Shown here piece by piece: positions 26,746-43,076 of a DNA stretch of 55,421 bases (the first letter of the stretch is position 1; the number at the start of each line of letters is the position of its first letter). The translations under genes were made by a program, and so were the position numbers. The notes beneath the pieces were generated by a model. It did not search any database, was not told the origin of the DNA, and saw nothing but the letters and a program-made list of their open reading frames with translations. The stretch lies in contig QHPD01000103.1 of the NCBI GenBank assembly GCA_003218975.1, positions 1 to 55,421 on the forward strand, in the 5' to 3' direction. This DNA is from Verrucomicrobiota bacterium. Its GTDB lineage: Bacteria > Verrucomicrobiota > Verrucomicrobiia > Chthoniobacterales > UBA10450.

Positions 26746-28359
26746 TTAGCCGAGCGAAAACCTGTCATCGACCGTTTCTTGGCCCGACGTGACACGGACA
26801 TGTGGATCATTGCTCGCTAGGTGTCGCAGCACATGAAAAACATCTTCGGGGTCTGCATCGATGGAACGTGCAATTTCTTCCGCGGTCTTTCCACTTCCGG
26901 CTGCGAGCTTCTCGCGCACTTGCTTTTGGAGTTGTAGCAATTTGGTCGCCGCCTTTTTTCCGGCCTCAACGCCGGGCTGATCATAGGCATTAATATCGAC
27001 CAGCGATGCATAGAAACCGACGGCGCGCTCATAAAGCGCGATTAGCACGCCGATGTTGAACGGGTCCACTCTGGGAATACTTAGAGTGACCGATTCGCGG
27101 CCGCTTTCATACAGGGCACTTCGCGTTCCACGCAAGAATCCGTGAAGATAATCGCCGCTGGTAATTCCGTCTTCGACCTCGATCGCCGGGCTGCGCCGGT
27201 CCTCGTCAACTTCGATGAAAGTTACGAAGAAATTCAACACGCCGTCGCGCAATTGCTGGACATAAGCGTGTTGATCTGTGGAGCCCTTATTGCCGTAAAC
27301 CGCAATTCCCTGATGCACCATGTTTCCACCGAGGTCCTTTTCTTTTCCCAGCGACTCCATCACCAGTTGTTGCAAATACTTGCTGAACAATGCTAGCCGA
27401 TCTTTGTACGGAAGGATCACCATGTCCTTTTTGCCTCTGCCGTTACCAGCGTAATACCACATTGACGCCAGAAGCATCGCCGCGTTTTGCGTTACGTCCG
27501 GTATGCGGGTCCGCTCATCCATCGCCGCTGCGCCCGCGAGAAAATTGTCGATGTCAAAACCTTCCAGCGCCATGGGAATAAGCCCCACCGCGCTCATCAC
27601 CGACGTGCGCCCACCAATCCAATCGTACATTGGAAACCGAGCGAGCCATTTGTTCTTCTCGGCATATTTATCTAGGTCGCTGCCAATTTCAGTCACCGCG
27701 ACCGCGTGGTTCCCAAATTGAAGTCCCTTCGTTGCGAATTTTGCTTCAGCTTCGAGCATTCCATTGCGTGTTTCCCTTGTCCCGCCGGATTTGGAAACGA
27801 CGATTACGAGCGTCTGCGAAAGGTTATTGTTCGCCGCGGCGATTCCGTCCCGCCGTACGGCGGACGGATCGATCTTGTCGAAGACGCGATCGAAACCGTC
27901 TGGGTCAGTGTTATCAAAAAAGTAGATGTCCATCAGATCGCGCGATGATCCGAGAGCGTCGGCCACGAATTGCGGTCCGAGCGCCGAGCCGCCGATGCCT
28001 ATGAGCAAAATATGTTCAAAGCGTTTTCCGTTTCCGGCCGTGATTTTTCCGGAGTGAACGTCCGCCGCGAATCTTTTGACGCGCTTGATGGTTTCTTCAA
28101 TCTCCGTGCGGATCTCCGCGGTGGGTGCAAGCGCCGGGTTCCGGAGCCAGTAATGGCCGACCATCCGCTTCTCATCCGGATTGGCGATTGCCCCCGACTC
28201 CAGCTCGCGCATCGCCGCGAATGCTTTCTCAGTAAGCGGCTGCATTTTCTCGAAGAAATCATCCGGGAATCTCATCCGGCTGATGTCGATGGAAAAAGCG
28301 AGATCGCCGTAGTACAAGAAATATTGCTGGAAACGCTGCCAGAGGGAGGAGGAAGCCAT
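26746..28359 (-). CDS. pgi: Glucose-6-phosphate isomerase
   Basis: About 537 residues from the ATG at 28357-28359; nine further codons upstream are open but poor. Family blocks include [43 protein letters not shown] and [17 protein letters not shown], the last being the GPI C-terminal signature. It interconverts glucose-6-P and fructose-6-P. After the signature there are about 60 extra residues (LQKQVREKL...[20 protein letters not shown]) with the look of a small winged-helix domain. Divergent from the dlt operon. Confidence 0.95.
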
Positions 28360-28614
28360 TGTGCTAATGATGCGAAGACCGCCCAATATTAAACGATAAA
28401 TGGACGCTCTTTTGCAATATCGGTTCTAGAATCTGTAAATCTAAACAAAACGTGAAGCCCGTTGCACAGCCCCTTTGGTTTGCGTCTCGGGTGGCGCTTC
28501 GCTTGGCGTCGGCCGATCCATTCTCTTGGAAATACGCAGTGTAGATCAACTATTCTTCCCGAGATTTGCACATTCTCTCATTGCAGGCTTTAATCGCGGC
28601 CATAACTTCGCCGT

Positions 28615-29817
28615 ATGATTATTCGCAGTCACGCGAACACAGGCATGCTGCATTTGTTTTCTGCACTCGTCGCCTGCGGCCTTGTGGCGGCCATTTTGTT
28701 CGTTGGCCGAACGATCGCCATTCATGTCGAGCAAATTACGCTTCCTTCAACAGCTCCCGAGCTATTTTCGCTAAAGAATCAGGGGCTTGCCTTCCAACGT
28801 GCCGCGGCTCGTGCACAGGACGTGTTACCGCTTTATGGTAGCTCAGAATTGGTCATTCCTCCAGTTCCAGAAAAGGCGAGTAGGTTCTTTCGCACTGCAC
28901 CAACGGGTTTCCAAGTTTCGCCCGTGGGCAAGCTAGGTGCGACCTCATTGACGATTTTGCAAAAATTCGGCGCCCTCAGTTCGGATCTACGCGGCAAAAA
29001 CGTCGTCATCTCACTTTCGCCTGAATGGTTTTTGGTTCAAGTCACTAGGTGGGACTGGTATAAAGGGAACTTTTCGCTGCTCGCAGCCAGCGAAATGACG
29101 TTTGGTAGCGCTCTGGATTTCCAGCTGAAGCGAGACATCGCTTTACGCATGCTGCAGTGTCCAAGCACGCTGGAAAAAAGCCCGTTACTCGAATTCGCGT
29201 TGAGGCGGCTCGCTTCCGGGTCATGGCTCGACCGAGTCTTTTTCTGCGCACTTTGGCCGATCGGGAAAACGCAGATTGCCTTACTGGAGTTGCAGGATCA
29301 TTTTGCCGCGCTGAGTTACATTCTGCATGATACCAAACCAACTCCGCGGCGCCACCTAGAAATGATTAACTGGTCGGAACTCGTTGCACAAACGGAACGC
29401 AAAACCGCCGATCAGAACAAAAACGAACAAAAAGCATTGGACCTCGACGAGCAAATAGCCCCTGGTCGTCGGGACGCGGGGTTTCTCAAGCGCATGGACG
29501 CGGCACCCGGATGGATAGATTTGGAATTGCTATTGCGTGTGCTGGCGAGGATTCAGGCCCGGCCGCTCCTCCTAAGCATGCCGATCGCCGGGCAGTCTTA
29601 CGATCAGAGAGGCGTTTCGCGGAAGGCCCGCGAAAGCTATTACAAAAGGATGCGTGCGGTAGCGCAGCGATACCAATCTCCGCTGGTTGAATTTGAAGAC
29701 CATGACAATGACTCGGCTTTTCTTGACAGCCAGGAAGACCACCTCACTGGAAAAGGCTGGATGTTTTACGATCGTGTTCTAGATGATTTCTTTCACGGGC
29801 GTATCCCACCAATCTAA
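28615..29817 (+). CDS. dltD: DltD-like protein (D-alanyl transfer)
   Basis: 400 residues with one N-terminal membrane anchor (LFSALVACGLVAAILFV) and an extracytoplasmic SGNH-like domain. The catalytic serine sits in LYGSSEL (Ser76/77) and the partner Asp-His in QEDHLTGKGW (Asp375, His376), as in DltD of Gram-positives. DltD helps pass D-alanine from DltC/DltB to the acceptor polymer. It is the first gene of the operon here, whereas in Firmicutes it is last. The promoter in the 255-base gap to pgi could not be identified with confidence. Confidence 0.9.
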   Translation: MIIRSHANTGMLHLFSALVACGLVAAILFVGRTIAIHVEQITLPSTAPELFSLKNQGLAFQRAAARAQDVLPLYGSSELVIPPVPEKASRFFRTAPTGFQVSPVGKLGATSLTILQKFGALSSDLRGKNVVISLSPEWFLVQVTRWDWYKGNFSLLAASEMTFGSALDFQLKRDIALRMLQCPSTLEKSPLLEFALRRLASGSWLDRVFFCALWPIGKTQIALLELQDHFAALSYILHDTKPTPRRHLEMINWSELVAQTERKTADQNKNEQKALDLDEQIAPGRRDAGFLKRMDAAPGWIDLELLLRVLARIQARPLLLSMPIAGQSYDQRGVSRKARESYYKRMRAVAQRYQSPLVEFEDHDNDSAFLDSQEDHLTGKGWMFYDRVLDDFFHGRIPPI

Positions 29818-29870
29818 CAGAATATATTTAGTCAAACGGCGTCGTTTATGATACTGCGCTACCTTATTAA

Positions 29871-30122
29871 ATGATGACTGCCAGCTTCTCTGACAAAGTA
29901 TTACAACTTCTGGCTTCCGTTGCGGAGACCGACGAGGTCTTCACCAACCTTGATCTACCTCTTTACGATCGTCAGGTGCTCGACTCAATGAGAACGGTTG
30001 AACTGATGGTAACGATCGAGAAGGAACTCGGCATCAAGGTTTCCCCAGCAGAATTCGAGCGTGAAAGCTGGAGAACGCCGCGTGACATCATCGCTGACCT
30101 CCAGCGCCGGCTGCACGCGTGA
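29871..30122 (+). CDS. dltC: D-alanyl carrier protein DltC
   Basis: 83 residues, typical carrier length. The phosphopantetheine attachment serine is Ser39 in VLDSMRTVELM, and the segment EKELGIKVSPAEFERESW matches DltC helices 2-3. It is charged with D-alanine by DltA. The start is one of two adjacent ATGs, 53 bases after dltD. The stop TGA overlaps the GTG of dltX by two bases. Confidence 0.93.
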   Translation: MMTASFSDKVLQLLASVAETDEVFTNLDLPLYDRQVLDSMRTVELMVTIEKELGIKVSPAEFERESWRTPRDIIADLQRRLHA

Positions 30123-30256
30123 CCTGGATCGAGAACCATCCGATGTTGCGGCGATTGCTGCTGATTCTGTATTACTTCGCCGTTATCGCGGGCTTGATAC
30201 TCATGTATGGCCGTGGTGACTTCTCCACACCGCCCTTTGTTTATCAAGGTTTCTGA
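30119..30256 (+). CDS. dltX: DltX, small membrane protein of the D-alanylation operon
   Basis: 45 residues from a GTG that overlaps the dltC stop. One N-terminal amphipathic start (MTWIENHPMLRRLLL), a single membrane helix, and the C-terminal motif TPPFVYQGF, which corresponds to the conserved TPTFIYNEF-type end of Firmicutes DltX as I recall it. The dltA ATG follows at the very next base after its stop. Size, topology, C-terminal motif and position between dltC and dltA make this identification strong. DltX is thought to act with DltB/DltD in the membrane. Confidence 0.88.
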   Translation: MTWIENHPMLRRLLLILYYFAVIAGLILMYGRGDFSTPPFVYQGF

Positions 30257-31714
30257 ATGAATCTGCTCGAACGAATCGATCATTGGGGCACAGTGTCCCC
30301 GGACGCGATTGCACATGTTAGCGACGACAGAAGTTTGACCTACGGCGAGCTGTGCAGGCGCTCGGATGCTCTTGCTCTTTATTTAGCAGAGCGTTTCGGC
30401 GATGATCGCGGGCCGATCGCAGCGCTCGGGCATCGCGAACCAGAAATGCTAATCGCGTTCCTTGGCTCGGTGAAATCGGGCCGACCTTACGTGCCGATCG
30501 ACACGGTATTTCCACGGCAGCGCATCGACAAGATCGTGGCAATTTCACGTGCGGCCATGGTCCTCACGCCGCAAGAGACCGCACAATTCTCCGCCACGGA
30601 GGCGCGCGCTCCCGCCAACTGCCTGCAGCGAGACGACCCGTTTTATATCCTTTTCACGAGCGGCAGCACGGGTGAGCCGAAGGGCGTCGTCATTAGCCTC
30701 GCTTGTTTGGAACATTTCATCGCTTGGATGCTAGCAGAGCAAAAATTCCTCGAGCAGGGCGAGATATTTTTGAACCAGGCACCATTCTCATTCGATCTCT
30801 CGGTGATGGACCTGTATTGTAGCCTTGCTACTGGAGGCACGCTATTCAGCATCAGCCGCGACCTTGTGGCCAACCCGAAAGCGCTTTATCGCACGCTGGG
30901 CAGCTCCAACGTGACCACATGGGTTTCCACGCCGTCCTTTGCACAGATGTGTCTGGTGGAGGAGAAATTTGGAGAGGCAATGCTTCCTCACGTCCGCCGC
31001 TTTCTCTTTTGCGGTGAAACGCTCGCGCCGCAGACCGCTGCGCTTCTACTGGAGCGTTTTCCCGGCGCCGAAGTTTGGAACAGTTATGGCCCGACAGAGG
31101 CGACCGTCGCCACGACTTCCGTGCGGATAGGTCGTACGATCCTGGAAAAATATTCACCCTTGCCCGTAGGACGCCCGATGCCTGGGACCGAAGTCTTCGT
31201 CATGAATGAAAGGGGTGAAGCTCTGCCGGCAAACAAACGAGGCGAGATCGTCATTGCGGGACCGAATGTCAGTCCCGGCTATCTTGGACGCCCCGATCTC
31301 ACCGCGGCCGTCTTTTTTCAACATGGCAGTCAGCGCGCTTATCGTACGGGCGATTTGGGACGATTTCATGACAAACTGCTTTTTTTTGAAGGGCGCATCG
31401 ATGAGCAAATCAAGCTCTATGGCTATCGTATCGAACTCGGTGATATCGAAGCGAATCTCCGGGCACTGTCGCTCGTGAGGGACGCGGTCGTAATTCCAGT
31501 AATCAAAAACGGCGCGGCCCAGTCGTTGGCCGCCTTTGTGGTGCTCAGTAAGCGGGGCGAGGAATCGGATTTCGAATTGTCGCATACGCTGCGAAAACAA
31601 CTCGGCGAGCGATTGCCCAACTACATGTTGCCACGCAAATTTGTTTTTCTGGATGCGTTTCCGATGACGGCGAATGGGAAAGCCGACCGAGCGAGGCTGG
31701 CCCAGTCGTTGTGA
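30257..31714 (+). CDS. dltA: D-alanine--D-alanyl carrier protein ligase DltA
   Basis: 485 residues, adenylate-forming family. Core motifs: LFTSGSTGEPKGVV (phosphate loop), NSYGPTEATVATTSV (A5), YRTGDLGRF (A7), GRIDEQIKLYGYRIELGDIE (A8) and the C-terminal lysine in TANGKADR. It activates D-alanine with ATP and loads DltC in the cytoplasm. The gene starts directly after the dltX stop and overlaps dltB by GTGA. Confidence 0.95.
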   Translation: MNLLERIDHWGTVSPDAIAHVSDDRSLTYGELCRRSDALALYLAERFGDDRGPIAALGHREPEMLIAFLGSVKSGRPYVPIDTVFPRQRIDKIVAISRAAMVLTPQETAQFSATEARAPANCLQRDDPFYILFTSGSTGEPKGVVISLACLEHFIAWMLAEQKFLEQGEIFLNQAPFSFDLSVMDLYCSLATGGTLFSISRDLVANPKALYRTLGSSNVTTWVSTPSFAQMCLVEEKFGEAMLPHVRRFLFCGETLAPQTAALLLERFPGAEVWNSYGPTEATVATTSVRIGRTILEKYSPLPVGRPMPGTEVFVMNERGEALPANKRGEIVIAGPNVSPGYLGRPDLTAAVFFQHGSQRAYRTGDLGRFHDKLLFFEGRIDEQIKLYGYRIELGDIEANLRALSLVRDAVVIPVIKNGAAQSLAAFVVLSKRGEESDFELSHTLRKQLGERLPNYMLPRKFVFLDAFPMTANGKADRARLAQSL

Positions 31715-33189
31715 TTCCTTACGCCGATTTCACCTATTTTGGACTGCTGCTTTACGCGGTCGTTCCCACGCTGATCCTGGGCGTTTTTGGCCGCGCCGGC
31801 TGGCGCTGGGCGCTCTTCGTGACCGCCGTGGTGCTGATCATACAGTATCAGGGGCTGTTAAACATCCGTTCCGATTTTCCGGTCCGCGAAATCTGGATCG
31901 TTATCGGGTTTGCCGCCTGGCAATGGGCAACGGTGCGTGCGTTTGCGAGCGCTGGTGCGCGAGGAGCTTGGCTGTTTTACGCCACGGTCGGGGCAAGCTT
32001 GCTTCCACTGGCAGCGACCAAATTTTTGCCGGTCATCTCGCCCGGAAGTCAGTTTGGGTTTCTCGGCATTTCCTACATCACATTTCGCGCGTTGGATATC
32101 GTGTTTTGCCTCCGGGACAAGGTCATCTCTGTGCCCGGCACGGTCGACCTCTTCATGTTTCTGTTTTTTTTCCCCACGACTTCTTCCGGACCCATCGATC
32201 GCTACCGGCGTTTTGCTAGCGATTGGAGAAAAACGCGAACCCGCGCTGAATTCCTGGTAGATCTCGACGGTGCCGTGCACCGCATTTTTCGTGGATTTTT
32301 TTACAAATTCATACTCGCCGCGCTAATCAAGCAATACTGGCTGGACCGCGCAGCAAGCAGTGGGAGCTTCGGCGCACTGCTCAGTTACATGTATGCTTAC
32401 AGCCTATATTTGTTTTTCGATTTTGCCGGTTACAGCGCTTTTGCCATTGCTCTCAGTTATGTCTTCGGCGTTCATACCCCGGAGAACTTCGATCGGCCGT
32501 TTCTGGCCAGAAACATCCGCGATTTTTGGAATCGCTGGCACATTACGCTTTCGTTTTGGTTTCGCGATCATGTTTATATGCGCTTTCTGCTTGCGGCTAC
32601 GCGCGGACAGTGGTTTGCGAACAAACACACTGCCGCCATCCTGGGATATTTTCTGGCGTTTGGATTAATGGGCTTGTGGCATGGAATCGAGCCGCACTAC
32701 ATTGTTTACGGGCTCTACCAGGGGATCCTGCTCTCAGCGTTCCACATTTTTTCTACCTGGGATAAAAAGCATCGCTATCGGCCGGATGGGCTGCTTTCGC
32801 GTGCGCTGGCTGTTTTTCTAACTTTCAACTTTGTTTGCTTCGGACTGCTCATCTTTTCCGGGCGCATTGGCGCCCCGCCGCTATCGCATCATGCGGGCGA
32901 AGTTGAACTGGTCGCCTGCTACGGAATCTCTGGCTGGGCTTGGGACAACTACCAGCCAAAGGCCAAAGTCAATGTCGATCTTTGGGATGGCGAACATTAC
33001 TTGATGACAATCCCTGCCAATCAGTTCCGGCAGGATCTCGCGGATGCAGGTTACGGAAACGGTCAGCATGGCTTTCGGATCGCAACGCCGCTGCTGGTCA
33101 AAGACGGCCACTCACACGAAATCCATTTTCGCATTGCTGGGACAAAACAAGAGCTGACCAATTCGCCTCAAGTAATTGCTTGCCCGTAA
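31711..33189 (+). CDS. dltB: DltB (MBOAT acyltransferase) with extra C-terminal domain
   Basis: 492 residues from a GTG overlapping the dltA stop. The MBOAT core has FFPTTSSGPIDRYRRF, RNIRDFWNRWHITLSFWFRD (His277) and FGLMGLWHGIEPHY with the catalytic-type His324. DltB moves D-alanine from DltC across the membrane. Canonical DltB is about 400 residues; here residues 397-492 form an additional soluble domain (GISGWAWDNYQPKAKV, QFRQDLADAGYGNGQHGF) that I have seen at the ends of glycosyltransferases. The core length and motifs are intact, so function is likely kept. Confidence 0.92.
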   Translation: MIPYADFTYFGLLLYAVVPTLILGVFGRAGWRWALFVTAVVLIIQYQGLLNIRSDFPVREIWIVIGFAAWQWATVRAFASAGARGAWLFYATVGASLLPLAATKFLPVISPGSQFGFLGISYITFRALDIVFCLRDKVISVPGTVDLFMFLFFFPTTSSGPIDRYRRFASDWRKTRTRAEFLVDLDGAVHRIFRGFFYKFILAALIKQYWLDRAASSGSFGALLSYMYAYSLYLFFDFAGYSAFAIALSYVFGVHTPENFDRPFLARNIRDFWNRWHITLSFWFRDHVYMRFLLAATRGQWFANKHTAAILGYFLAFGLMGLWHGIEPHYIVYGLYQGILLSAFHIFSTWDKKHRYRPDGLLSRALAVFLTFNFVCFGLLIFSGRIGAPPLSHHAGEVELVACYGISGWAWDNYQPKAKVNVDLWDGEHYLMTIPANQFRQDLADAGYGNGQHGFRIATPLLVKDGHSHEIHFRIAGTKQELTNSPQVIACP

Positions 33190-33308: not shown

Positions 33309-34622
33309 TCACATGTGTTCGATGACGTTGTCGCCAAACTCGCTGCATTTGATTTCGGTTGCGCCGTCCATTAGCCGCGCGAAATCGTACGTGACGCGCT
33401 TGCTAGCGATCGCGCCACTGAGCCCTTTCAGAATCAAATCAGCGGCTTCCTTCCATCCCATGTAACGAAACATCATTTCACCGGAAAGAATGACCGAGCC
33501 GGGGTTCACCTTGTCCTGATTCGCATACTTCGGCGCGGTGCCGTGGGTCGCTTCGAAAACGGCGTGACCAGTGATGTAGTTAATATTTCCTCCGGGCGCG
33601 ATGCCGATCCCGCCTACCTGCGCAGCGAGCGCATCGCTAAGGTAATCGCCATTCAGATTCAGCGTCGCGATCACGTCAAAATCTTCCGGGCGCAGCAGCA
33701 CTTGTTGAAGCGCGTTGTCCGCTATTGCATCTTTGATCACGATCCCGGCTCCCGGTTTGCCCATGGGAATCTTGCACCAGGGGCCGCCATCGATCTCTTC
33801 GGCGCCGAAGTATTGTTTTGCGATTTCGTAGCCCCAATCGCGAAAGGCGCCTTCGGTAAATTTCATAATGTTGCCCTTGTGCACGAGCGTCACACTCTTG
33901 CGCTGGTTCTTGATCGCGTATGAGATCGCGCTATGGATCAAGCGCACGCTGCCGGCGCGGCTGACCGGCTTGATGCCGATTCCTACGCAAACTTCGTCAC
34001 CTTCCAGCGCGCCGACTTTTTTCCAGAAATCTGCCGCTTTTTTCCTCGTGCCGAAGCGAATTTTATCGAACTGCTCAGGAAATTCCTTTTGCATGAAATC
34101 CAGAAACTTTTGCGCCTCGGGCGTGCCGGCGGCGTACTCGATTCCAGCGTAAATGTCTTCTGTGTTTTCCCGAAAGATGACCATGTTTACTTTCTCCGGA
34201 TGCTTGAGAGGCGAGGGGACCCCTTCGAAGTACTGCACCGGCCGCAGGCACACAAAAAGATCGAGAAGCTGCCGCAGTGCGACGTTAAGCGAGCGAATGC
34301 CGCCGCCGACCGGAGTGGTCAGCGGACCTTTGATGCCGACCAGATATTCGCGGAATGCTTCCACGGTATCATCTGGCAACCAGTCATCGAATTTGTCTTT
34401 CGCCGATTGACCGGCAAAAACTTGAAACCAGGCGATCTTCTTCTTTCCGCCAAACGCTTTCTCGACTGCGGCATCGAACACGTGTTCGCTCGCCGCCCAG
34501 ATGTCCGGCCCGGTGCCATCTCCCCGAATGAAAGGAATGATAGGCTGATTCGGGATACGCAATTGTCCTTTGTCGATCGAAATCTTGTCGCCGGATGGCG
34601 GTGTGACGTTTGTGTAAGACAT
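33309..34622 (-). CDS. icd: Isocitrate dehydrogenase (NADP-type)
   Basis: 437 residues. Blocks: [12 protein letters not shown], substrate-binding [16 protein letters not shown] with the serine that is phosphorylated in E. coli, [16 protein letters not shown], and coenzyme-site [17 protein letters not shown]. It catalyses oxidative decarboxylation of isocitrate in the TCA cycle. No aceK is near. It converges with dltB across about 120 bases and is divergent from the gsp cluster. Confidence 0.96.
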
Positions 34623-34958: not shown

Positions 34959-35432
34959 GTGCAACGATTCCGGGGTTTTACATTGATCGAGATCGTCCTT
35001 GCGATCTCGATACTGATGTTGCTGCTTTTGCTGGCGGTGCCGAGTCTGCACGGCGTATTCACAAATAGGCGGCTGAAAAGTTCTTTGGACGGGTTCAACA
35101 ATCTCGTCCGCGAAGCCCAGCAGCGCACTGTGAGCGAGCGGCGCCCTTATCTCATTGTCTGGCGAAAGGACGATGTCATCCTACGCCCGGAGACTTTCGC
35201 GAAAGGTGAAAGGGTCAAGCCGACAGCGCAATTTCAGCTTGTTCGCGGAGAAGTCTTGAAACTGTCATTGCCAGCAGCGTTGACAAAGAAGTATCCAGCC
35301 GAATGGATTTTCTGGCCGTCGGGAATATGCGAGCCGGCAGCGGTCCAGTTCAACGGCCCGGCTGGATCGTGGACGGTAAATTACTCGCCCTTGGCAGTGC
35401 AACCGGAACTTACAGATTATGCGGCGCGATAA
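34959..35432 (+). CDS. gspH: Type II secretion minor pseudopilin GspH-like
   Basis: 157 residues, GTG start. Short leader then the prepilin site RG-FTLIE and an 18-residue hydrophobic helix (IVLAISILMLLLLLAVPSL). The soluble part matches GspH/FimT length. First gene of a chain of six overlapping or abutting pseudopilus genes. GspH forms part of the pseudopilus shaft or tip. The 3' end overlaps gspI by 14 bases. Confidence 0.8.
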   Translation: MQRFRGFTLIEIVLAISILMLLLLLAVPSLHGVFTNRRLKSSLDGFNNLVREAQQRTVSERRPYLIVWRKDDVILRPETFAKGERVKPTAQFQLVRGEVLKLSLPAALTKKYPAEWIFWPSGICEPAAVQFNGPAGSWTVNYSPLAVQPELTDYAAR

Positions 35433-35835
35433 CGGGAGCAAAATTCGAGATTTCTGTCGCGCTTTCGCGCTTTATGAGGTGGTCCTCGGTGTGGCGATTT
35501 TCGCCGTCGGCGTGTTGGCGCTCGGGCGAGCGGTGGAAAATTGCCTGAGTGCGAGCACACTCAACGCAGAAGAAGAAGCTGTGCGTGAGATACTAGCCAA
35601 CCGTATGGCGGAAGTTCAGGCCGCGCCTGGTTTCCCCGATACGGCCAAGGAATTCAAGATCGACAGCGGTTTTGGCGTTGTAACCTTGATCCAGAAAAGC
35701 GCGCCGGCTGATTTGGTCGAACCGAATAATACGCGGCTGAACGGGATCAATCTGGTGACCTTGACTGCGCAGTGGGAACGCCGCAGGGCTCCGCAATCGA
35801 AACAGATCAACTTTTATGTCTATCGTCCCGGGTAA
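35419..35835 (+). CDS. gspI: Minor pseudopilin GspI-like
   Basis: 138 residues. The prepilin region is RAFALYEVVLGVAIFAVGVL: the conserved Glu+5 is present, while the usual Gly before the cleavage site is Ala. The rest fits GspI (LTLTAQWERR-type C-terminal strand VTLTAQWERRRA). Overlaps both neighbours, so translation is probably coupled. Confidence 0.78.
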   Translation: MRRDNGSKIRDFCRAFALYEVVLGVAIFAVGVLALGRAVENCLSASTLNAEEEAVREILANRMAEVQAAPGFPDTAKEFKIDSGFGVVTLIQKSAPADLVEPNNTRLNGINLVTLTAQWERRRAPQSKQINFYVYRPG

Positions 35836-36478
35836 TAGCAGGGTGCAAATTAGAGATTCGAGATTCGAAATCCGAAATTCCCGCGGTTTCACGCTGCTGG
35901 AGATCATACTAGCCATGGCGATTCTCGGCATGATGTCACTGGCGATTTACCGTTTTGTGCAATCGAATCTGATCGCCATGCGCGCTTCATCTCAGGCAAG
36001 CGCGGCTGAGGCGCCATACGGCGGGTTGCGCGATTTATTAACCGAGCAATGGCAAGGTCTGCCCCAAGGCCGCGGCGGTCTCAGCGGAGAACCTTTCAAG
36101 CTAAACGATCGTCAGCGCGACGAGATTAGATGGAAATGCAGCGCCGGATCGGGATTACTGACGCGGTACGCGGGGGGGGAATTCATGGTGCTGTTGCGGT
36201 TGCAGCCCCAAAGCGAGAAGAGCGACCAGCTTGATCTGGGGCTTTTGCGCAAGCCAGCGGACGATACCGGCGCCGGACCCGAGCGCGAAAGCTGGGTACC
36301 GTTGATTAAGAATGTGCGCAGCCTGCAAATTGGTTATTTCGAACCTCGACTGAACAGCTGGGTGGACCGCTGGACAGACTCGGCGCGACTGCCTCGCCTG
36401 GTGAAATTAACTATCGGACGCACTGATAGCTCTGTGCCGTGGGAAGCGATTATTCCCATAAGCCGAACGCCATTTTGA
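35816..36478 (+). CDS. gspJ: Minor pseudopilin GspJ-like
   Basis: 220 residues. The prepilin cleavage site is SRG-FTLLEI after Gly24 followed by a hydrophobic helix. Residues 11-22 of the leader (QIRDSRFEIRNS) are encoded by a dispersed GATTCGAAAT-type repeat. Because the leader is cut off by the prepilin peptidase, the mature protein would be unaffected. The C-terminal part fits GspJ (LVKLTIGRTD). Overlaps gspI by 20 bases. Confidence 0.8.
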   Translation: MSIVPGNSRVQIRDSRFEIRNSRGFTLLEIILAMAILGMMSLAIYRFVQSNLIAMRASSQASAAEAPYGGLRDLLTEQWQGLPQGRGGLSGEPFKLNDRQRDEIRWKCSAGSGLLTRYAGGEFMVLLRLQPQSEKSDQLDLGLLRKPADDTGAGPERESWVPLIKNVRSLQIGYFEPRLNSWVDRWTDSARLPRLVKLTIGRTDSSVPWEAIIPISRTPF

Positions 36479-36481
36479 ACG

Positions 36482-37414
36482 ATGAAAGCTTTTAGTCCGA
36501 AATTGGAAATTCGAAATCCGAAACTGACCTCTGGCGCAGCGCTGATGCTGGCGCTCTGGGCGCTGTTTATGCTTAGCGCAATGGTGACTTCCTGGGCAGC
36601 CGATATTCAGTCGCGCCTCACTCTTTCCAGCAATGCCAACCGCGTTTTGAGCGCAGAAGCGATGGCGTGTTCGGGCGCGGACGTTGCGCTGCATCCGGCC
36701 ATAAGCCCCAGCTCGCCAAACTTGCACCGGCAAATCGGAAGCGAAGGTTACGACACTCACATTGCCGGCGAGGGCGGCCGCTTGAATCTGAACTGGCTGA
36801 CCGCAGGGGAAGACCCGGTGCGCCTGGATATTTTGCGGAGATATCTCGAGCTCAAAGGTGTCGATCTTAATGATCGCGATACGATGATCGATGCGCTGCT
36901 GGATTGGGTGGAAGCAAATACCGGGCTACATCGGTTGAACGCCCCGCCGGAGACGGACGAGTATCGTCCGCCGCACGCGCCGCTGGGCTCCGTGGACGAA
37001 CTCAAGGAAGTCGCCGGATGGAAAGAATTCACTTCGCGGCCGGGCTGGGCCGATGATTTCACGATCAACAGCACAGGGCCGATCGATCTTGCCTGGGCAT
37101 CGCGCGATGTGTTGCGAGCGTTACCGGGCATGCGTGATGATTTGGTCGATCGTTTTCTGCAATTACGACAAGGCCCCGACGGCATCGATGGGACGGCCGA
37201 TGATTTTCTGTTCAACAATCTCACTAACGTGCAGACCGCACTCGGCTTTACAGCGGAGCAATTTCAGCAGATCGCCGCCCTGGTGATATTCAAGGACCCG
37301 GTCTTCCGGATTACGAGTGTTGGAAAATCAGGCAACGTAAAACGCTCCGTGCAAGTGTTGGTGCGCAAGGTCCTCGGCGACGTTCCTCAATTGATTAGCT
37401 GGAAGGAGATTTGA
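36482..37414 (+). CDS. gspK: Tip pseudopilin GspK-like
   Basis: 310 residues, the long-pseudopilin length expected of GspK. The leader (SPKLEIRNPKLTSG) is again repeat-derived, and is followed by ALMLALWALFMLSAMVTSW. The body has the two SAM-like helical domains of GspK (LNLNWLTAGEDPVRLDIL, INSTGPIDLAWASRDVLRAL). GspK caps the pseudopilus with GspI and GspJ. Four bases separate it from gspJ and its stop overlaps the TTG start of gspL. Confidence 0.83.
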   Translation: MKAFSPKLEIRNPKLTSGAALMLALWALFMLSAMVTSWAADIQSRLTLSSNANRVLSAEAMACSGADVALHPAISPSSPNLHRQIGSEGYDTHIAGEGGRLNLNWLTAGEDPVRLDILRRYLELKGVDLNDRDTMIDALLDWVEANTGLHRLNAPPETDEYRPPHAPLGSVDELKEVAGWKEFTSRPGWADDFTINSTGPIDLAWASRDVLRALPGMRDDLVDRFLQLRQGPDGIDGTADDFLFNNLTNVQTALGFTAEQFQQIAALVIFKDPVFRITSVGKSGNVKRSVQVLVRKVLGDVPQLISWKEI

Positions 37415-38652
37415 TTATCGAGACTGCAGCCACATCCGTTTTTATCATTCCGACCGCACACGGCTGGAATCTTCTGCGTTCGACCGAGGGAAACGGCTCG
37501 TGGAATGTGCGTAGGCTGGAGTCCCTAGAGGAGGCTGTGCCGCTGCTCACGCCCACGGACGATCTGGTGCTCGGTCTGCCTCTTACCGCCGTGCTCGCGC
37601 AACGATTCCATTTGCCGACTAGCGATGCGGCAGAGTTTCCGGAAATGATTCGAATTCAGGTTGAGAAAGCGTTGCCATTTTCGCCTGATGAAGTGACCAC
37701 CGATTTTGAAGTAATCGAGCAAAACGAAAGTGGAAGCGTTGTTTCGGCTGTTGCAGTCAGAAACGAACAGCTTGCTGAGATCGCGGCGCCACTGCTGAAA
37801 CGCGGCTACATTCCGCGCCAAGTAACCGTCTATGCGGCACAACGGGCGAGCACCCACGCGCCACAGGGAAACGCTCTGCTGATTTATCCAGAGGGCGAAA
37901 CCCTTGTTTATGCCGTGACTGAAAACGGAAAACTGAGCCTCGCTCGAACGTTGGAAAATGCCAATGGGGAACAGTTGCAATTGGAATTGCCGCAGTTCCG
38001 GTTGAGCGCCGAATTGCAAGGCATCAGCGCATCCTTCCCGAACGTATTGCTGGATGAGAAATGCTACGAACTCCGCGACGCCGTGCAGGGAATCCTGGCT
38101 AGCCCGGCTGAAATCGTGGGCATCGAACTCCCGCCCGCTCCGGTCAAATTAAACCTTCTTCCCGAAAGCTGGCGCCGCCGTCGCTTGCAATTGGCTCGGC
38201 GACTGGAATGGCGCAAACGGCTCATTTGGGCAGGGAGCACTTATGCAGGGTTGCTCGTTGTCTTGCTGGTCTATCTTGCCTTCATGCGCATGGGAATTGG
38301 AAGGATCGAGCGACAGATTGCGCGCGACGCGCCGAAAACGGAGTTTGTCCGCGCTACGGAAGCCAATTGGAAGGCGCTCGCGCCCGCTATCGATTCGCGT
38401 TACTACCCGGTCGAAATCTTGCTGCATCTTTTCGAAAGTCTGCCGTCTGCCGATGTGCGTATCACGGCGTATAATCAATCTGCACGGCAGATTTCAGTCG
38501 ATGGCGAGGCCAGCACGGCGGCGCTCGCTTATCAATTCATTGAGAACATCAAGAAAAAACCGGAGCTGGGCGTATTTCAATTCGACATGGCAGCGCCCCG
38601 CATTTTGCCGAACGACCATGCGCAGTTCCGAGTGGAGGGCAGGCCACGATGA
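37411..38652 (+). CDS. gspL: GspL/PilM-PilN-like assembly platform protein
   Basis: 413 residues from a TTG preceded by AAGGAGAT. The N-terminal actin-like domain (LVLGLPLTAVLAQRF, IRIQVEKALPFSPDEV) resembles PilM/GspL; a membrane helix at about 275-295 (AGSTYAGLLVVLLVYLAFM) is followed by a periplasmic PilN-like part. GspL couples the cytoplasmic ATPase GspE to the platform. Overlaps both gspK and gspM by four bases. Confidence 0.75.
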   Translation: MIIETAATSVFIIPTAHGWNLLRSTEGNGSWNVRRLESLEEAVPLLTPTDDLVLGLPLTAVLAQRFHLPTSDAAEFPEMIRIQVEKALPFSPDEVTTDFEVIEQNESGSVVSAVAVRNEQLAEIAAPLLKRGYIPRQVTVYAAQRASTHAPQGNALLIYPEGETLVYAVTENGKLSLARTLENANGEQLQLELPQFRLSAELQGISASFPNVLLDEKCYELRDAVQGILASPAEIVGIELPPAPVKLNLLPESWRRRRLQLARRLEWRKRLIWAGSTYAGLLVVLLVYLAFMRMGIGRIERQIARDAPKTEFVRATEANWKALAPAIDSRYYPVEILLHLFESLPSADVRITAYNQSARQISVDGEASTAALAYQFIENIKKKPELGVFQFDMAAPRILPNDHAQFRVEGRPR

Positions 38653-39203
38653 TAGTGCCCGGGTGGTACGAGCGGATGAATCAGCGCGAACGCGTACTTT
38701 CATGGCTTGTCGTGGGCACGCTGTTCCTCCTTGTGAATCTTTTCATTTTGAGCTGGCTCTTTGGCGCTTTGGGTCGCGCTCGGGCGGAGTTGGCCGCACG
38801 CAAAGCGGTTTTGGCCGAGCAGACTGTCTATATAAAGGAACGAGACCTTTGGATGAAGCGCGACCAATGGATTCGGCAACATCAACCAACGCTTAAGAAT
38901 CCAGGCGAAGCCTCTGTTCTACTCGACCAGTTGAAACAGGTGGCCGGCAAGGATAATATCTTGATTCAAAATCCTGCGATTGGCACGGGCGAAACAACTC
39001 CTTACCACCAGACGATTTTTGCCTCGATTGAAACGAAGAGCCCATGGCCGCCTCTCGTGCATTTTCTCTACGATGTGCAGCAGCCTGATGCTTTTGTCGT
39101 ATTCGAGAATGTCAATCTCGTCATCGACAGCAGTGATCCCACTATGATGCGCGGCAAGTTTAAGACCGCCCGCTGGTTTGCACCGGCGCAGCGACCCAAA
39201 TAG
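38649..39203 (+). CDS. gspM: GspM-like protein
   Basis: 184 residues: a short cytoplasmic start with WYERMNQRERVLSW, one membrane helix (LFLLVNLFILSWLFGALG), a coiled-coil stretch and a ferredoxin-like periplasmic domain. This layout, and the place directly after gspL, identify GspM/PilO. It stabilises GspL in the inner membrane. Confidence 0.7.
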   Translation: MIVPGWYERMNQRERVLSWLVVGTLFLLVNLFILSWLFGALGRARAELAARKAVLAEQTVYIKERDLWMKRDQWIRQHQPTLKNPGEASVLLDQLKQVAGKDNILIQNPAIGTGETTPYHQTIFASIETKSPWPPLVHFLYDVQQPDAFVVFENVNLVIDSSDPTMMRGKFKTARWFAPAQRPK

Positions 39204-39208
39204 CTAGT

Positions 39209-39847
39209 ATGAAACATGCTTTCGCAATTGTGTCGGTCCTTGCGCTGCTGGGCGCGGCCTTGAGTCGCGCCGACGATGTGCTTCCACCGCGCTTCAATTT
39301 CGATCGCTACTCAGCAATGCTGGAGAAGTCGCCATTTGCAATTGCCACGGCGGTCGCTTTACCTGCGGCAAAGCCCGATTTCGCCAAGGACCTTTACGTG
39401 GCGAATGCGGCGCATTCACCCGACGGTGACCTGGTGACGATCGCGTCGAGTTCGGATCATAATTTCAAAAGATATCTCACTACAAAAGAGCCGGTAGATG
39501 GCTACAGCATCGCCGGTATCGAATGGTCGGATCGTGTGGGGGAGACAAAGGTAACCATTGGCAAGCATGGACAATTTGCGACCATTACTTTCAACCAGGC
39601 GCTGATGTCGCAACCGCCACCGGCCGTCGCAAGCTCTGTGCCGAATGTAATGCCAGATGAGCCCGACGTTACTGCTCCGCCGCCGACCGTTGCCGCGCCG
39701 GCCATGCCCGTGCGTTCTCCATTTGTGCCTCCAGTTCTAAACCAGCAGGCGCCTAGCCCTCACGTGCGCGGCGTAATTCAGCGAAATCCAAGGTTGCCAT
39801 CGAGGCGTCCTAAATCAGTTCTCGGGATGCCGCGTGCGCAACAATAA
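39209..39847 (+). CDS. Exported proline-rich protein at the end of the gsp operon
   Basis: 212 residues with a signal peptide (MKHAFAIVSVLALLGAALSR) and a Pro-rich C-terminal half. Residues about 60-130 could fold as a small beta domain (DGYSIAGIEWSDRVGETKVTI), similar in layout to the homology region of GspC. No family recognised. Its position six bases after gspM suggests a pseudopilus or secretin-contact role, perhaps replacing GspC. Confidence 0.6.
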   Translation: MKHAFAIVSVLALLGAALSRADDVLPPRFNFDRYSAMLEKSPFAIATAVALPAAKPDFAKDLYVANAAHSPDGDLVTIASSSDHNFKRYLTTKEPVDGYSIAGIEWSDRVGETKVTIGKHGQFATITFNQALMSQPPPAVASSVPNVMPDEPDVTAPPPTVAAPAMPVRSPFVPPVLNQQAPSPHVRGVIQRNPRLPSRRPKSVLGMPRAQQ

Positions 39848-39900
39848 GGTGCTGGCGCGTCGTTCTTACTCCATTTCAGGGCACTCCGTGATCGGATCGG

Positions 39901-40323
39901 TCAACCGCCGCCCCAATCGTCATCCGCTGTGTCAGCCTTCCGATCCGGCCCTGCGGAATATAGATCGTAGCCGCTCGGATCTTTGAGACCAGGATTGCGA
40001 TAAATATAATCGCTGCCCCAGGGATCTTTTGGCTGCTCCTTGAACAACTGATACCAGCGGGTAGGTCGCGGATCATTCTGCGGTTGGGTCACCAGTGCCT
40101 GCAAACCCTGTTCCGTCGTCGGATAGAACCCGTTCATGCTCTCGTAGAGTTGCAGCTGCGTTTTGATCGCCTGAACGTCGGCTTGAACGCGCATGCTTTT
40201 CGCGACCCCGGTGGTATTGCCAAGTTTTGAAATCGCGACACCCAAAATGATCACGATGATGCTAACCACGAGCATGATCTCCAGCAGCGTAAAACCGTGT
40301 TGTTTCGTTTTCTTTCTCATCAC
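39901..40323 (-). CDS. gspG: Major pseudopilin GspG
   Basis: 140 residues. Leader then QHG-FTLLEIMLVVSIIVIIL, followed by QLYESMNGFYPTTEQGLQAL, PKDPWGSDYIYRNPG and YDLYSAGPD, the hallmark order of GspG, including the acidic calcium-site tail (ADTADDDW). The main shaft protein of the type II pseudopilus. On the strand opposite to gspH-M. Confidence 0.95.
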   Translation of the reverse strand: MMRKKTKQHGFTLLEIMLVVSIIVIILGVAISKLGNTTGVAKSMRVQADVQAIKTQLQLYESMNGFYPTTEQGLQALVTQPQNDPRPTRWYQLFKEQPKDPWGSDYIYRNPGLKDPSGYDLYSAGPDRKADTADDDWGGG

Positions 40324-40380
40324 AAATAAGCAGCAACCTCTTCTGGTTAGCGGTTACGCTACTTTAAACTTGGGGAATTG

Positions 40381-41442
40381 CTAGTGACCGGTCTGCAGAA
40401 GATAATCCGACTTGTCCCACAAATACTTTAATTGGATCTGCGTAGCGCGGATTGCGGAAGTGCCGCTGGCAGGCCCGTTCACAACAAGCAGATCATTCGT
40501 TCCTACTTTCAGGCTAGTGACCGGCACAATTTTCTGCGCACGCAGCCAGCCAGTGTATTGGAAATGCATTTGCCTGACGAGCCGTTCGCCTTCGCCACGG
40601 TAGCCCGGGTCAGCCAGATCCGGCAGGGCAAGCGAAGCCGGCCCGATGTCCTGGCCATTGAGATAAATCTCAGGCGCAGCATCAATGCGCGGGCTCACGA
40701 TTTCGAACGTGAGCAGGGCAGCAAGCGGTTGGGCTTCAATCGAAAACTGAAATGCGGCACCCTGCTGAATCTGCGATCCGATTCGGATTGTTTCTGCCGC
40801 AAGTGTTGCAGTGACAGTCCCGAATTGCTCTACGTCTTCAGCCGGCGCACGCAGTTGGGGCATCGATGAGAACGGTTCGGGAATCATTTCACGGTGCTCA
40901 GCGTTCACAGGATGAACCACCGCGCTGCTCGTCATCCAGTCGAGATACGCCGCCCGCACTGTTTTGCCATCTCCGGGCACTTCGATATCGATCGATGAGG
41001 CGGCGGTCATGGGGATGATCACCGAATCCGAGCTGGGCAAATCAACTCCCGAACCCAGCAGGCCCGACCGCAGCACGTGGGTGCCGGATTCGTCCCAGGC
41101 AATCAGTTCCGGCCGTTGATCGGGCTTATCGTCGAAGAACAAGCGAAAAAGAAGTACTTGATGGGCCGGGCTCGGCCTGGTCACGCGAATGCGAAAGACG
41201 CTTTTCGACAACGTGTTGACTGCTGCTTGCGCCGGTAACAAGGTCACTGCCTCCACCCATGGCGGCGCGCTTTGTGTTCTCGAATTCTCAGGTACGTTTT
41301 GGCGGAGATCAATCCAGGCGCTTTCCGGAACTGGCTGCGCCGACGTATCGAGGGGCGACAGTAAGGCATCGCTCAGGGCCTCCTGCGCAGAAGCGCGACA
41401 GATCGCGCTGAAAAGTAACGCGAAGGCGACCCAGCGAAACAT
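40381..41442 (-). CDS. Exported protein of unknown function in the gsp cluster
   Basis: 353 residues with a signal peptide ending CRASAQ. The mature part is rich in beta-type sequence and lacks cysteines. No family recognised. It lies between gspG and gspF, 58 bases from the former, so it is likely expressed with them and may be a secreted substrate or accessory of the system. Confidence 0.65.
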   Translation of the reverse strand: MFRWVAFALLFSAICRASAQEALSDALLSPLDTSAQPVPESAWIDLRQNVPENSRTQSAPPWVEAVTLLPAQAAVNTLSKSVFRIRVTRPSPAHQVLLFRLFFDDKPDQRPELIAWDESGTHVLRSGLLGSGVDLPSSDSVIIPMTAASSIDIEVPGDGKTVRAAYLDWMTSSAVVHPVNAEHREMIPEPFSSMPQLRAPAEDVEQFGTVTATLAAETIRIGSQIQQGAAFQFSIEAQPLAALLTFEIVSPRIDAAPEIYLNGQDIGPASLALPDLADPGYRGEGERLVRQMHFQYTGWLRAQKIVPVTSLKVGTNDLLVVNGPASGTSAIRATQIQLKYLWDKSDYLLQTGH

Positions 41443-41490
41443 CGGTAGGCGGCGAGGCTATTGAAGCGCCATCTGCATTGCAAGCAATTT

Positions 41491-42735
41491 TTAGTGTGGA
41501 CGAAATTGCAAGCTATGTGTCATCTCGAAGACCGCCGAGAGAATGCTGAAAACGACGAGACCAACCAACACTGCAATTACCACGATAATTACCGGCGGAA
41601 TCAGTTGTGAGATCACTGCGACGCTTCGATCCAGTTCACGTTCATATACGTCAGCGATTGCCTGCATCGTTTCGGCGAAATGCCCAGTTTGTTCTCCGAC
41701 CGACATCATGTCCGTCAACAAATCCGGAAAGAATTTTTGCGCCTGCAAAGCGGCGGAGAGCGTCGCACCGTCGATGACTGCCCTGCGTACTTCGCGCAAT
41801 TTTAGTTCGAGAAATTTGTTCCCGGCAATTTCAGTCACTAGATCAAGCGAGCGGAGCAGGGGAATTCCATTTTCCATCAATGTTCCCAATGTACGCGAGA
41901 ACTGCGCATAATACCGATGCCGGATTACCCGCCCATAGCCAGGAATCAGCAATCGGAAACGATCCCACGCAACCCGTCCTTCGTTTGTGCGGACAAACGC
42001 GCGAAAACCAATGACGGCGCCCACCGCCAGAAGCACGCCGATCCACCAGTAACCCGTGATGGCGTGGTGAACGTGCAGCAGGATTCGGGTAGGGAAGGGA
42101 AGCGCGCCGCCAGTTTGCGCCATGAACCCGGTCAGCTGCGGCACCATGAACGTGATGAAAATTGTAACTAGGATGGCACCCGCCAGCGTGAGAAACGTCG
42201 GGTAGATCATCGCTTGCTGCACGCGATCTCGCAAGTCTTTCGCCTGTGTCAGATGTTTAACAAGCCGAAGCAGAATTTGTGGCAGCGCGCCGCTTGCCTC
42301 ACCAGCAGCTACCAGATTTACATAGAGCGGCGGGAAGATTCGCGGTAGCTCGCTGAGTGCCTGCGAAAAACTCCGTCCATCGATCAGCGCCTGGTGCAGC
42401 GTGTGCGTCATCTGCTGGACCCGCGGCTGCTTCAAACGTTTTTCCAGGATCGACAATCCTTCGTCCAGCGTCATCCCTGCCTGCAGCAAATGGGCGAGTT
42501 GCTCTGTAAAAACCAGCAACTGCCCGTGCGGAATTTTCAGCTTTTGTGTGGGCGCTGCCGCTACTGCGCCTTCTCGTCTAACTGCTGTAGGCGCTGCACC
42601 TACCATCTCGATCCGGATCGGTATGCACTGCTGTGCTTCAATCTGGTGAATGGCAACCCCGCGATCCTGGCAGTCCAAAACTCCCTCGACGAGACCGCCC
42701 TGCGCGTTACGCGCGCGATAAGCAAACTGTGGCAT
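41491..42735 (-). CDS. gspF: Type II secretion inner-membrane platform protein GspF
   Basis: 414 residues. Two GspF domains: LLVFTEQLAHLLQAGMTLDE and YYAQFSRTLGTLMENGIPLL, each followed by membrane helices (MIYPTFLTLAGAILVTIFIT; LIPPVIIVVIAVLVGLVVFS). The N-terminal linker, residues about 46-65 (VGAAPTAVRREGAVAAAPTQ), is encoded by a GTAGGCGCTGCACC-type repetitive stretch. GspF is the platform partner of the GspE ATPase, which is not in the window. Confidence 0.94.
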   Translation of the reverse strand: MPQFAYRARNAQGGLVEGVLDCQDRGVAIHQIEAQQCIPIRIEMVGAAPTAVRREGAVAAAPTQKLKIPHGQLLVFTEQLAHLLQAGMTLDEGLSILEKRLKQPRVQQMTHTLHQALIDGRSFSQALSELPRIFPPLYVNLVAAGEASGALPQILLRLVKHLTQAKDLRDRVQQAMIYPTFLTLAGAILVTIFITFMVPQLTGFMAQTGGALPFPTRILLHVHHAITGYWWIGVLLAVGAVIGFRAFVRTNEGRVAWDRFRLLIPGYGRVIRHRYYAQFSRTLGTLMENGIPLLRSLDLVTEIAGNKFLELKLREVRRAVIDGATLSAALQAQKFFPDLLTDMMSVGEQTGHFAETMQAIADVYERELDRSVAVISQLIPPVIIVVIAVLVGLVVFSILSAVFEMTHSLQFRPH

Positions 42736-43076
42736 CCCGTTTGGACATTAGTGCAAAATGGAAAATGCAAAACGCGAAATTCTTACAGAGAACCTAGTCT
42801 TCCGCTGGAGTTTACATCAAATAATCTCGAACAGACTTTTCGATAAGCTGTTCGGCCGAAGTTACCGTTCGGAAAACCTGCTGGATCACGGGCGACTTTG
42901 TAGAGCCACGCGGAATCCTCGCTTTTTCTTGCGCGATTTAAGCGAATCACAAATCAGTTCGTTCTCGCTTTTTGTCATATGTAGTGGAGCCTGGGCGGGT
43001 CTGCCACAACAGATAGGAAAAATTACCGCGAAAATTTACTTGCCATGTCGAAATCGTTCATGTACACGCGACCAAC
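42736..43076. other. Gene-free stretch upstream of gspF
   Basis: 341 bases. A plus-strand open frame crosses it (42758-43210), but its composition (runs of Ser/Cys/Arg, no domain) is unlike a protein. The gspF promoter is expected here; no clear consensus was seen. Confidence 0.5.

Follow-up and report, generated by a model that had tools for sequence, protein, structure and literature searches.

Introduction

The Dlt pathway is known from textbooks as the way in which Gram-positive bacteria come to tolerate cationic peptides. A dlt operon complete with DltX, fixed at one chromosomal site in very common soil bacteria, raises the question of what the pathway modifies when there is no teichoic acid. 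In the present study, this question is put to a locus on a 55 kb contig of a 3.06 Mb MAG that is 97% complete; the whole contig, 55,421 nucleotides in length, was analysed and is called the window here. In an earlier note, made from the letters of the window, a complete D-alanylation operon including dltX had been read in a probable Gram-negative member of the Verrucomicrobiota. An earlier description of DltX assigns this small protein to Firmicutes (PMC3783018).

Results

The operon was found exactly where the earlier note had placed it, at positions 28615-33189, and all five products were recognised by family profiles. The genes lie on one strand in the order D-C-X-A-B. Three of the products, DltA, DltB and DltC, are identified as Dlt proteins by NCBIfam profiles; Pfam identifies DltD and DltX and places these three in their general families. 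The first gene, dltD (28615-29817, forward strand, as for the other four), encodes a membrane-anchored SGNH-type D-alanyl transferase of 400 aa, which scores 140 bits with PF04914, far above the Pfam cut-off, and has a phmmer match to the solved DltD 6pfx. It is followed after 53 bp by dltC (29871-30122), encoding the D-alanyl carrier protein of 83 aa, with matches to solved DltC proteins, a score of 83.6 bits with NF003464 (cut-off 68) and a score over the cut-off of TIGR01688. The next gene, dltX (30119-30256), has a GTG start and encodes a single-span microprotein of 45 aa. The D-alanine--DltC ligase of 485 aa encoded by dltA (30257-31714) reaches 560.5 bits with TIGR01734 against a cut-off of 559.85 and matches B. 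cereus DltA (3fcc) with an E-value of 6e-146. The last gene, dltB (31711-33189), encodes an MBOAT D-alanyl transferase of 492 aa with 425.7 bits for TIGR04091 (cut-off 375), and its model matches solved DltB (8jem and 6bug) over the MBOAT core with a TM of 0.83-0.84 by target length. The junctions are also as previously described, since by their coordinates dltC/dltX and dltA/dltB overlap by GTGA and dltX abuts dltA. A promoter scan of the operon did not find a sigma-70-type match.

The operon is flanked on the reverse strand by two genes outside the system, namely pgi for glucose-6-phosphate isomerase (26746-28386) and icd for isocitrate dehydrogenase (33309-34622), which form the left and right borders of the conserved dlt site. 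Beside icd, type II secretion/pseudopilin-like genes follow one another on both strands at 34959-42747, with prepilin N-termini such as FTLLEIMLVVSI.

The key residues, which had been called intact, are conserved among about 100 aligned relatives. These include the GSSE motif (28837-28848) and His376 (29740-29742) of DltD, Cys252 of DltA (31010-31012) within FLFCGE, the phosphopantetheine Ser39 of DltC (29985-29987), kept in 95 of 95 rows, and the histidines 277 (32539-32541) and 324 (32680-32682) of DltB, kept in 101 of 102 rows. Four of the five proteins match solved Dlt proteins by sequence, and no match of DltX was found among PDB sequences. With the NCBIfam LTA-specific equivalog TIGR04092, DltD scored 133.3 bits and stayed under the cut-off of 150; this score is consistent with a non-LTA acceptor and also with simple divergence. 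On the strength of these profiles and residues, the operon very probably encodes a functional D-alanyl transfer system.

The 45-residue DltX product, MTWIENHPMLRRLLLILYYFAVIAGLILMYGRGDFSTPPFVYQGF, closes with the hexapeptide FVYQGF (30236-30253). This agrees with the acyl-shuttle motif FxYxxF, whose tyrosine takes D-Ala from DltB and gives it to DltD (PMC12148441). Conserved orthologues of DltX stand at the corresponding place in relatives. The PF12459 score of 25.3 bits is borderline against the cut-off of 25, and was 23.7 bits in the whole-genome search. Chance as the source of such borderline scores is excluded by conservation across the order, because in 46 of the 53 order members with a DltB match DltX was matched as well; contig ends or sub-threshold scores explain at least some of the seven misses. 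In nearly all relatives DltX is encoded directly upstream of dltA, and every DltX found ends in an FxYxxF-type hexapeptide, one Chloroflexi row reading AIYQGF. In a Gemmatimonadaceae MAG, a DltX missed by the profile was recovered by the motif (VFIYQGF). The DltX homologue outside Gram-positives, suspected from the window, is thus real and extends beyond it.

A profile search across Verrucomicrobiota genomes had been proposed as a check, and it bore out the operon in relatives. In the order survey at E 1e-60, a DltB match was obtained in 53 of 213 genomes, and in 51 of the 213 (10 of 45 genera) DltB was over the curated cut-off; in the genus, 17 of 35 genomes had a DltB match. In a draw of 388 genomes of the phylum, DltB was above the cut-off in one, the window's own. 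This near-uniqueness was dismissed as a sampling effect, the order-wide search having found the 51. Within Verrucomicrobiota, the Dlt system seems to belong chiefly to Chthoniobacterales.

Since Dlt is typical of Gram-positives, and only that one genome of the phylum draw was positive, it had to be weighed whether a Gram-positive contig had contaminated the MAG, or whether the operon had recently been acquired from Firmicutes. Several lines of evidence speak against both. The system is carried by about half of the genus and by the order genomes counted above, and many independent MAGs hold it at one site between verrucomicrobial pgi and icd. This holds for all genus loci of sufficient length, an S9 peptidase gene preceding icd in some of them. 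Furthermore, nine congeners without dlt keep the adjacency of pgi and icd. In six of them the gap does not exceed about 230 bases, in the other three the S9 peptidase alone intervenes, and no dlt remnant was found at this site in the nine. In the genus, dlt is a presence/absence character at one fixed site. At 53.9%, the GC content of the operon matches that of the window (54.4%), and its codon usage is ordinary for the window.

The trees point the same way. In the DltA tree, Chthoniobacterales form one clade with 96% SH-aLRT, and in both this tree and the DltB tree, which was rooted on other MBOATs, the sampled Bacilli and Desulfosporosinus stand apart from them. The neighbours are Chloroflexota, Isosphaeraceae, Eiseniibacteriota, Gemmatimonadota and unclassified Bacillota MAGs. 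The earlier note had named, as findings that would speak against a native operon, a tree with these genes nested inside Firmicutes together with contamination signatures, or loss of the operon in all close relatives. The DltB tree placed Chthoniobacterales outside the sampled Firmicutes, the DltA tree agreed, and relatives keep dlt at the pgi-icd site. Contamination and recent transfer from Firmicutes are extremely improbable in our estimate, and were rejected on the grounds of synteny, the empty sites, the trees and the local composition. The deep order of the trees is weakly supported and the sampling of Firmicutes was limited, so an ancient transfer is possible in either direction.

Some variation among the related loci was also observed. 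In Chthoniobacteraceae (L077, L082, L114), dlt lies downstream of sucA-sucB and not at the pgi/icd site of Udaeobacter. In L076 and L082 the operon reads D-C-X-B with dltA absent from the gap; dltA is therefore elsewhere or missing. The dlt sequences of L076 and L114 (titled Akkermansia muciniphila) and L083 (titled Opitutus sp.) group with Chthoniobacteraceae, against the titles of these MAGs, which to judge by this grouping are probably mislabelled. A tandem pair of dltD genes upstream of dltC is present in three MAGs of the Udaeobacter genus (L062, L066, L067) and one Anaerolineae MAG (L093), and may possibly serve two acceptors.

The DltB of the window carries an extra C-terminal domain of about 105 aa (residues about 387-492; 32869-33186, forward strand), which is supported by alignment, AF2 model, tail comparison and relatives in other proteins and had escaped the earlier note. 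In ordinary DltBs only a few residues follow the IFSG that belongs to the last helix, and the window DltB runs on for the length of this domain. The same extension is present in most Udaeobacter and Chthoniobacteraceae relatives, and among the DltBs compared it was not found outside Chthoniobacterales. It is missing in some dlt-bearing relatives (L074, L075 and L096, which form one DltA clade, L088 and L091); the domain is therefore non-essential and modifies rather than makes the activity. In the Chthoniobacteraceae DltBs (L078-L084, L114), the Ig-like domain is followed by a charged helix-like stretch (NEEEIQREEEKLRKAREAAE) and then a proline-rich tail.

The alignment of the domain shows invariant residues including GxGxGxHxF, and its AlphaFold (AF2) model, with a pLDDT of 93, is an Ig/FN3-like beta-sandwich. 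Structure searches gave a best Foldseek E-value of 0.014 and a best Z of 7.1, with FN3-like chains at 6-6.7, a common arrangement, and no clear structural homologue was found in them. The domain alone found no match in Pfam or among PDB sequences, and it occurs a single time in the genome, in which further copies were not found. Relatives of the domain are present in alphaproteobacterial glycosyltransferases and their neighbours; the relatives borne by glycosyltransferases are probably cytoplasmic, so a common glycan-binding role is a guess. In the full-length DltB model the domain keeps its fold behind the MBOAT core. Strong positive charge marks the loop that precedes the last helix (STWDKKHRYRP), and by the positive-inside rule the C-terminus is therefore predicted to be periplasmic, on the side of the DltX motif and DltD.

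Discussion

The earlier note's reading of the host as a Gram-negative verrucomicrobium agrees with both neighbours and gene content. The closest named loci are from soil Verrucomicrobia MAGs and Candidatus Udaeobacter (order Chthoniobacterales), and the genome has the LPS-related genes for LpxC and the Kdo-transferase family. It also encodes alanine racemase as a source of D-Ala, and a Wzy_C-family protein (O-antigen ligase/polymerase), a family that occurs in Gram-positives too. A search for the CDP-glycerol-type teichoic polymerase family PF04464 was negative in this 97% complete genome and positive in both controls, B. subtilis and L. lactis. The host therefore lacks the combination by which a teichoic-bearing Gram-positive was defined, that is, PF04464 present and LPS absent. 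From the lack of visible teichoic acid genes it had been concluded that the acceptor must be another envelope polymer. The first part now holds genome-wide for the CDP-glycerol type, and the "must" is to be softened: with LPS genes present and this polymerase absent, we infer that LPS or another glycan is a likelier acceptor than teichoic acid.

By homology to the Gram-positive mechanism, DltA would adenylate D-alanine and load it onto the phosphopantetheine arm of DltC, and the MBOAT protein DltB would move it across the inner membrane onto Tyr43 of DltX in FVYQGF. DltX would then pass the D-Ala to the serine of DltD, and DltD would esterify a periplasmic acceptor. The expected outcome is a less negative surface, on which cationic antimicrobials may be tolerated. 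The Ig-like domain of DltB, predicted to be periplasmic, would most likely aid acceptor binding or DltD docking; that it recognises the acceptor itself is a tentative proposal, which we hold at less than even probability. Taken as a whole and by analogy with known systems, the locus is probably a complete, native Dlt system in an LPS-bearing verrucomicrobium, most likely esterifying LPS or another surface glycan with D-alanine. For the acceptor by itself, we give LPS or a surface glycan about an even chance.

The whole pathway including DltX is as in Firmicutes and DltD comes from an LTA-modifying family, which would suit an organism that makes an LTA-like glycerol-phosphate polymer and modifies it by Dlt in the Firmicutes manner. 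This is unlikely in view of the missing PF04464, the LPS genes and the DltD score below the LTA-specific equivalog cut-off (133 vs 150 bits). Gene context does not help in this choice. The neighbours of dlt are metabolic genes, namely pgi, icd and the S9 peptidase in the genus and, in Chthoniobacteraceae, sucAB with a PHP protein; in other phyla they are unrelated genes. In none of the loci examined was an envelope-polymer gene present beside dlt, so the acceptor is unreadable from the surroundings.

Other polymers have also been considered. MBOAT-SGNH pairs modify peptidoglycan and exopolysaccharides by the same acyl-Tyr chemistry (PMC12148441), and non-Dlt MBOATs are widespread in the phylum, with matches, nearly all of them distant, in 212 of the 388 genomes. 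DltB, DltX and DltD may accordingly act like PatA/PatB or AlgI/AlgJ with D-Ala as the acyl group, on peptidoglycan or on an exopolysaccharide such as a capsule or a cellulose- or alginate-like polymer. We regard this as a rather doubtful possibility, as the literature covered ties carrier-protein-dependent aminoacyl transfer to teichoic acids and LPS only, and a polysaccharide cluster is absent beside dlt. PatA/PatB peptidoglycan O-acetylation likewise runs from an MBOAT protein through a C-terminal Tyr motif to an SGNH enzyme (PMC12148441), but there the donor is acetyl-CoA and the motif is on PatA itself, whereas the window has a carrier protein and a separate DltX.

A substrate other than D-alanine was also considered. 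To our knowledge, the last step of the Vibrio cholerae Alm system is not an MBOAT-DltX-DltD relay. The Alm system, as outlined in PMC3783018, uses a similar logic of amino-acid activation and carrier for a change of LPS charge, but with glycine instead of D-Ala. Dlt-like genes that add glycine to Gram-negative LPS (Hankins 2012, as cited in PMC3783018) lend something to the idea that the pathway here was re-tuned to glycine or L-Ala in the same manner. The DltA of the window, however, is above the D-Ala ligase equivalog cut-off and retains the Cys in FLFCGE, a motif found in D-Ala ligases, and such re-tuning is very improbable.

Among known systems, the dltXABCD operon of Bacilli (e.g. B. thuringiensis, S. 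aureus, Listeria) has in common with the window the five proteins, the catalytic residues, the DltX gene directly upstream of dltA and FxYxxF (PMC5541007, PMC12148441). The order is X-A-B-C-D in Bacilli and D-C-X-A-B in the window, and the DltX loop signature here is YGRGDFSTPPFVYQ[GE]F against ...FIYNEF in Bacilli. Unlike these operons, that of the window belongs to an LPS-bearing host without the CDP-glycerol-type teichoic polymerase and has the extra DltB domain. Gene order, DltX signature and DltB domain set the Chthoniobacterales system apart. The nearest relatives outside Verrucomicrobiota in the DltA and DltB trees, together with some unclassified Bacillota MAGs, are eight loci of Chloroflexota, Gemmatimonadota, Eiseniibacteriota and Isosphaeraceae MAGs (L085, L086, L090, L092, L093, L095, L097, L098). 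Their DltB has no C-terminal domain and several are ordered C-D-X-A-B; DltX was found in seven of the eight, and L086 ends at a contig edge upstream of dltA.

Gram-negative dlt genes are already known, so that novelty here is limited to the lineage, the clear presence of DltX and the DltB domain. The Bordetella dra locus is a similar Gram-negative case. In the Gram-negative Dickeya and Pectobacterium, dlt genes are thought to modify LPS and resistance to antimicrobial peptides has been proposed (Pandin 2016, as cited in PMC5541007); these resemble the window in host type and proposed LPS acceptor, belong to another phylum and were compared by description only. A report of dlt in Verrucomicrobiota was not found in the literature searched, which takes in few subscription journals and is weak evidence on this point.

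Conclusion

Candidatus Udaeobacter has been reported to thrive upon antibiotic release in soil, in a study where dlt is unmentioned (PMC7343977). Surface D-alanylation would be a candidate contributor to this success under soil antibiotic release. It is possible, although we hold it as less likely than not, that soil Chthoniobacterales including the abundant Udaeobacter have a full DltX-dependent D-alanylation of LPS or another surface glycan with an added periplasmic acceptor-recognition domain on DltB, the fusion of this domain having redirected Dlt from teichoic acid towards a new polymer. The fused DltB domain may offer a handle on how the Dlt pathway chooses its acceptor.
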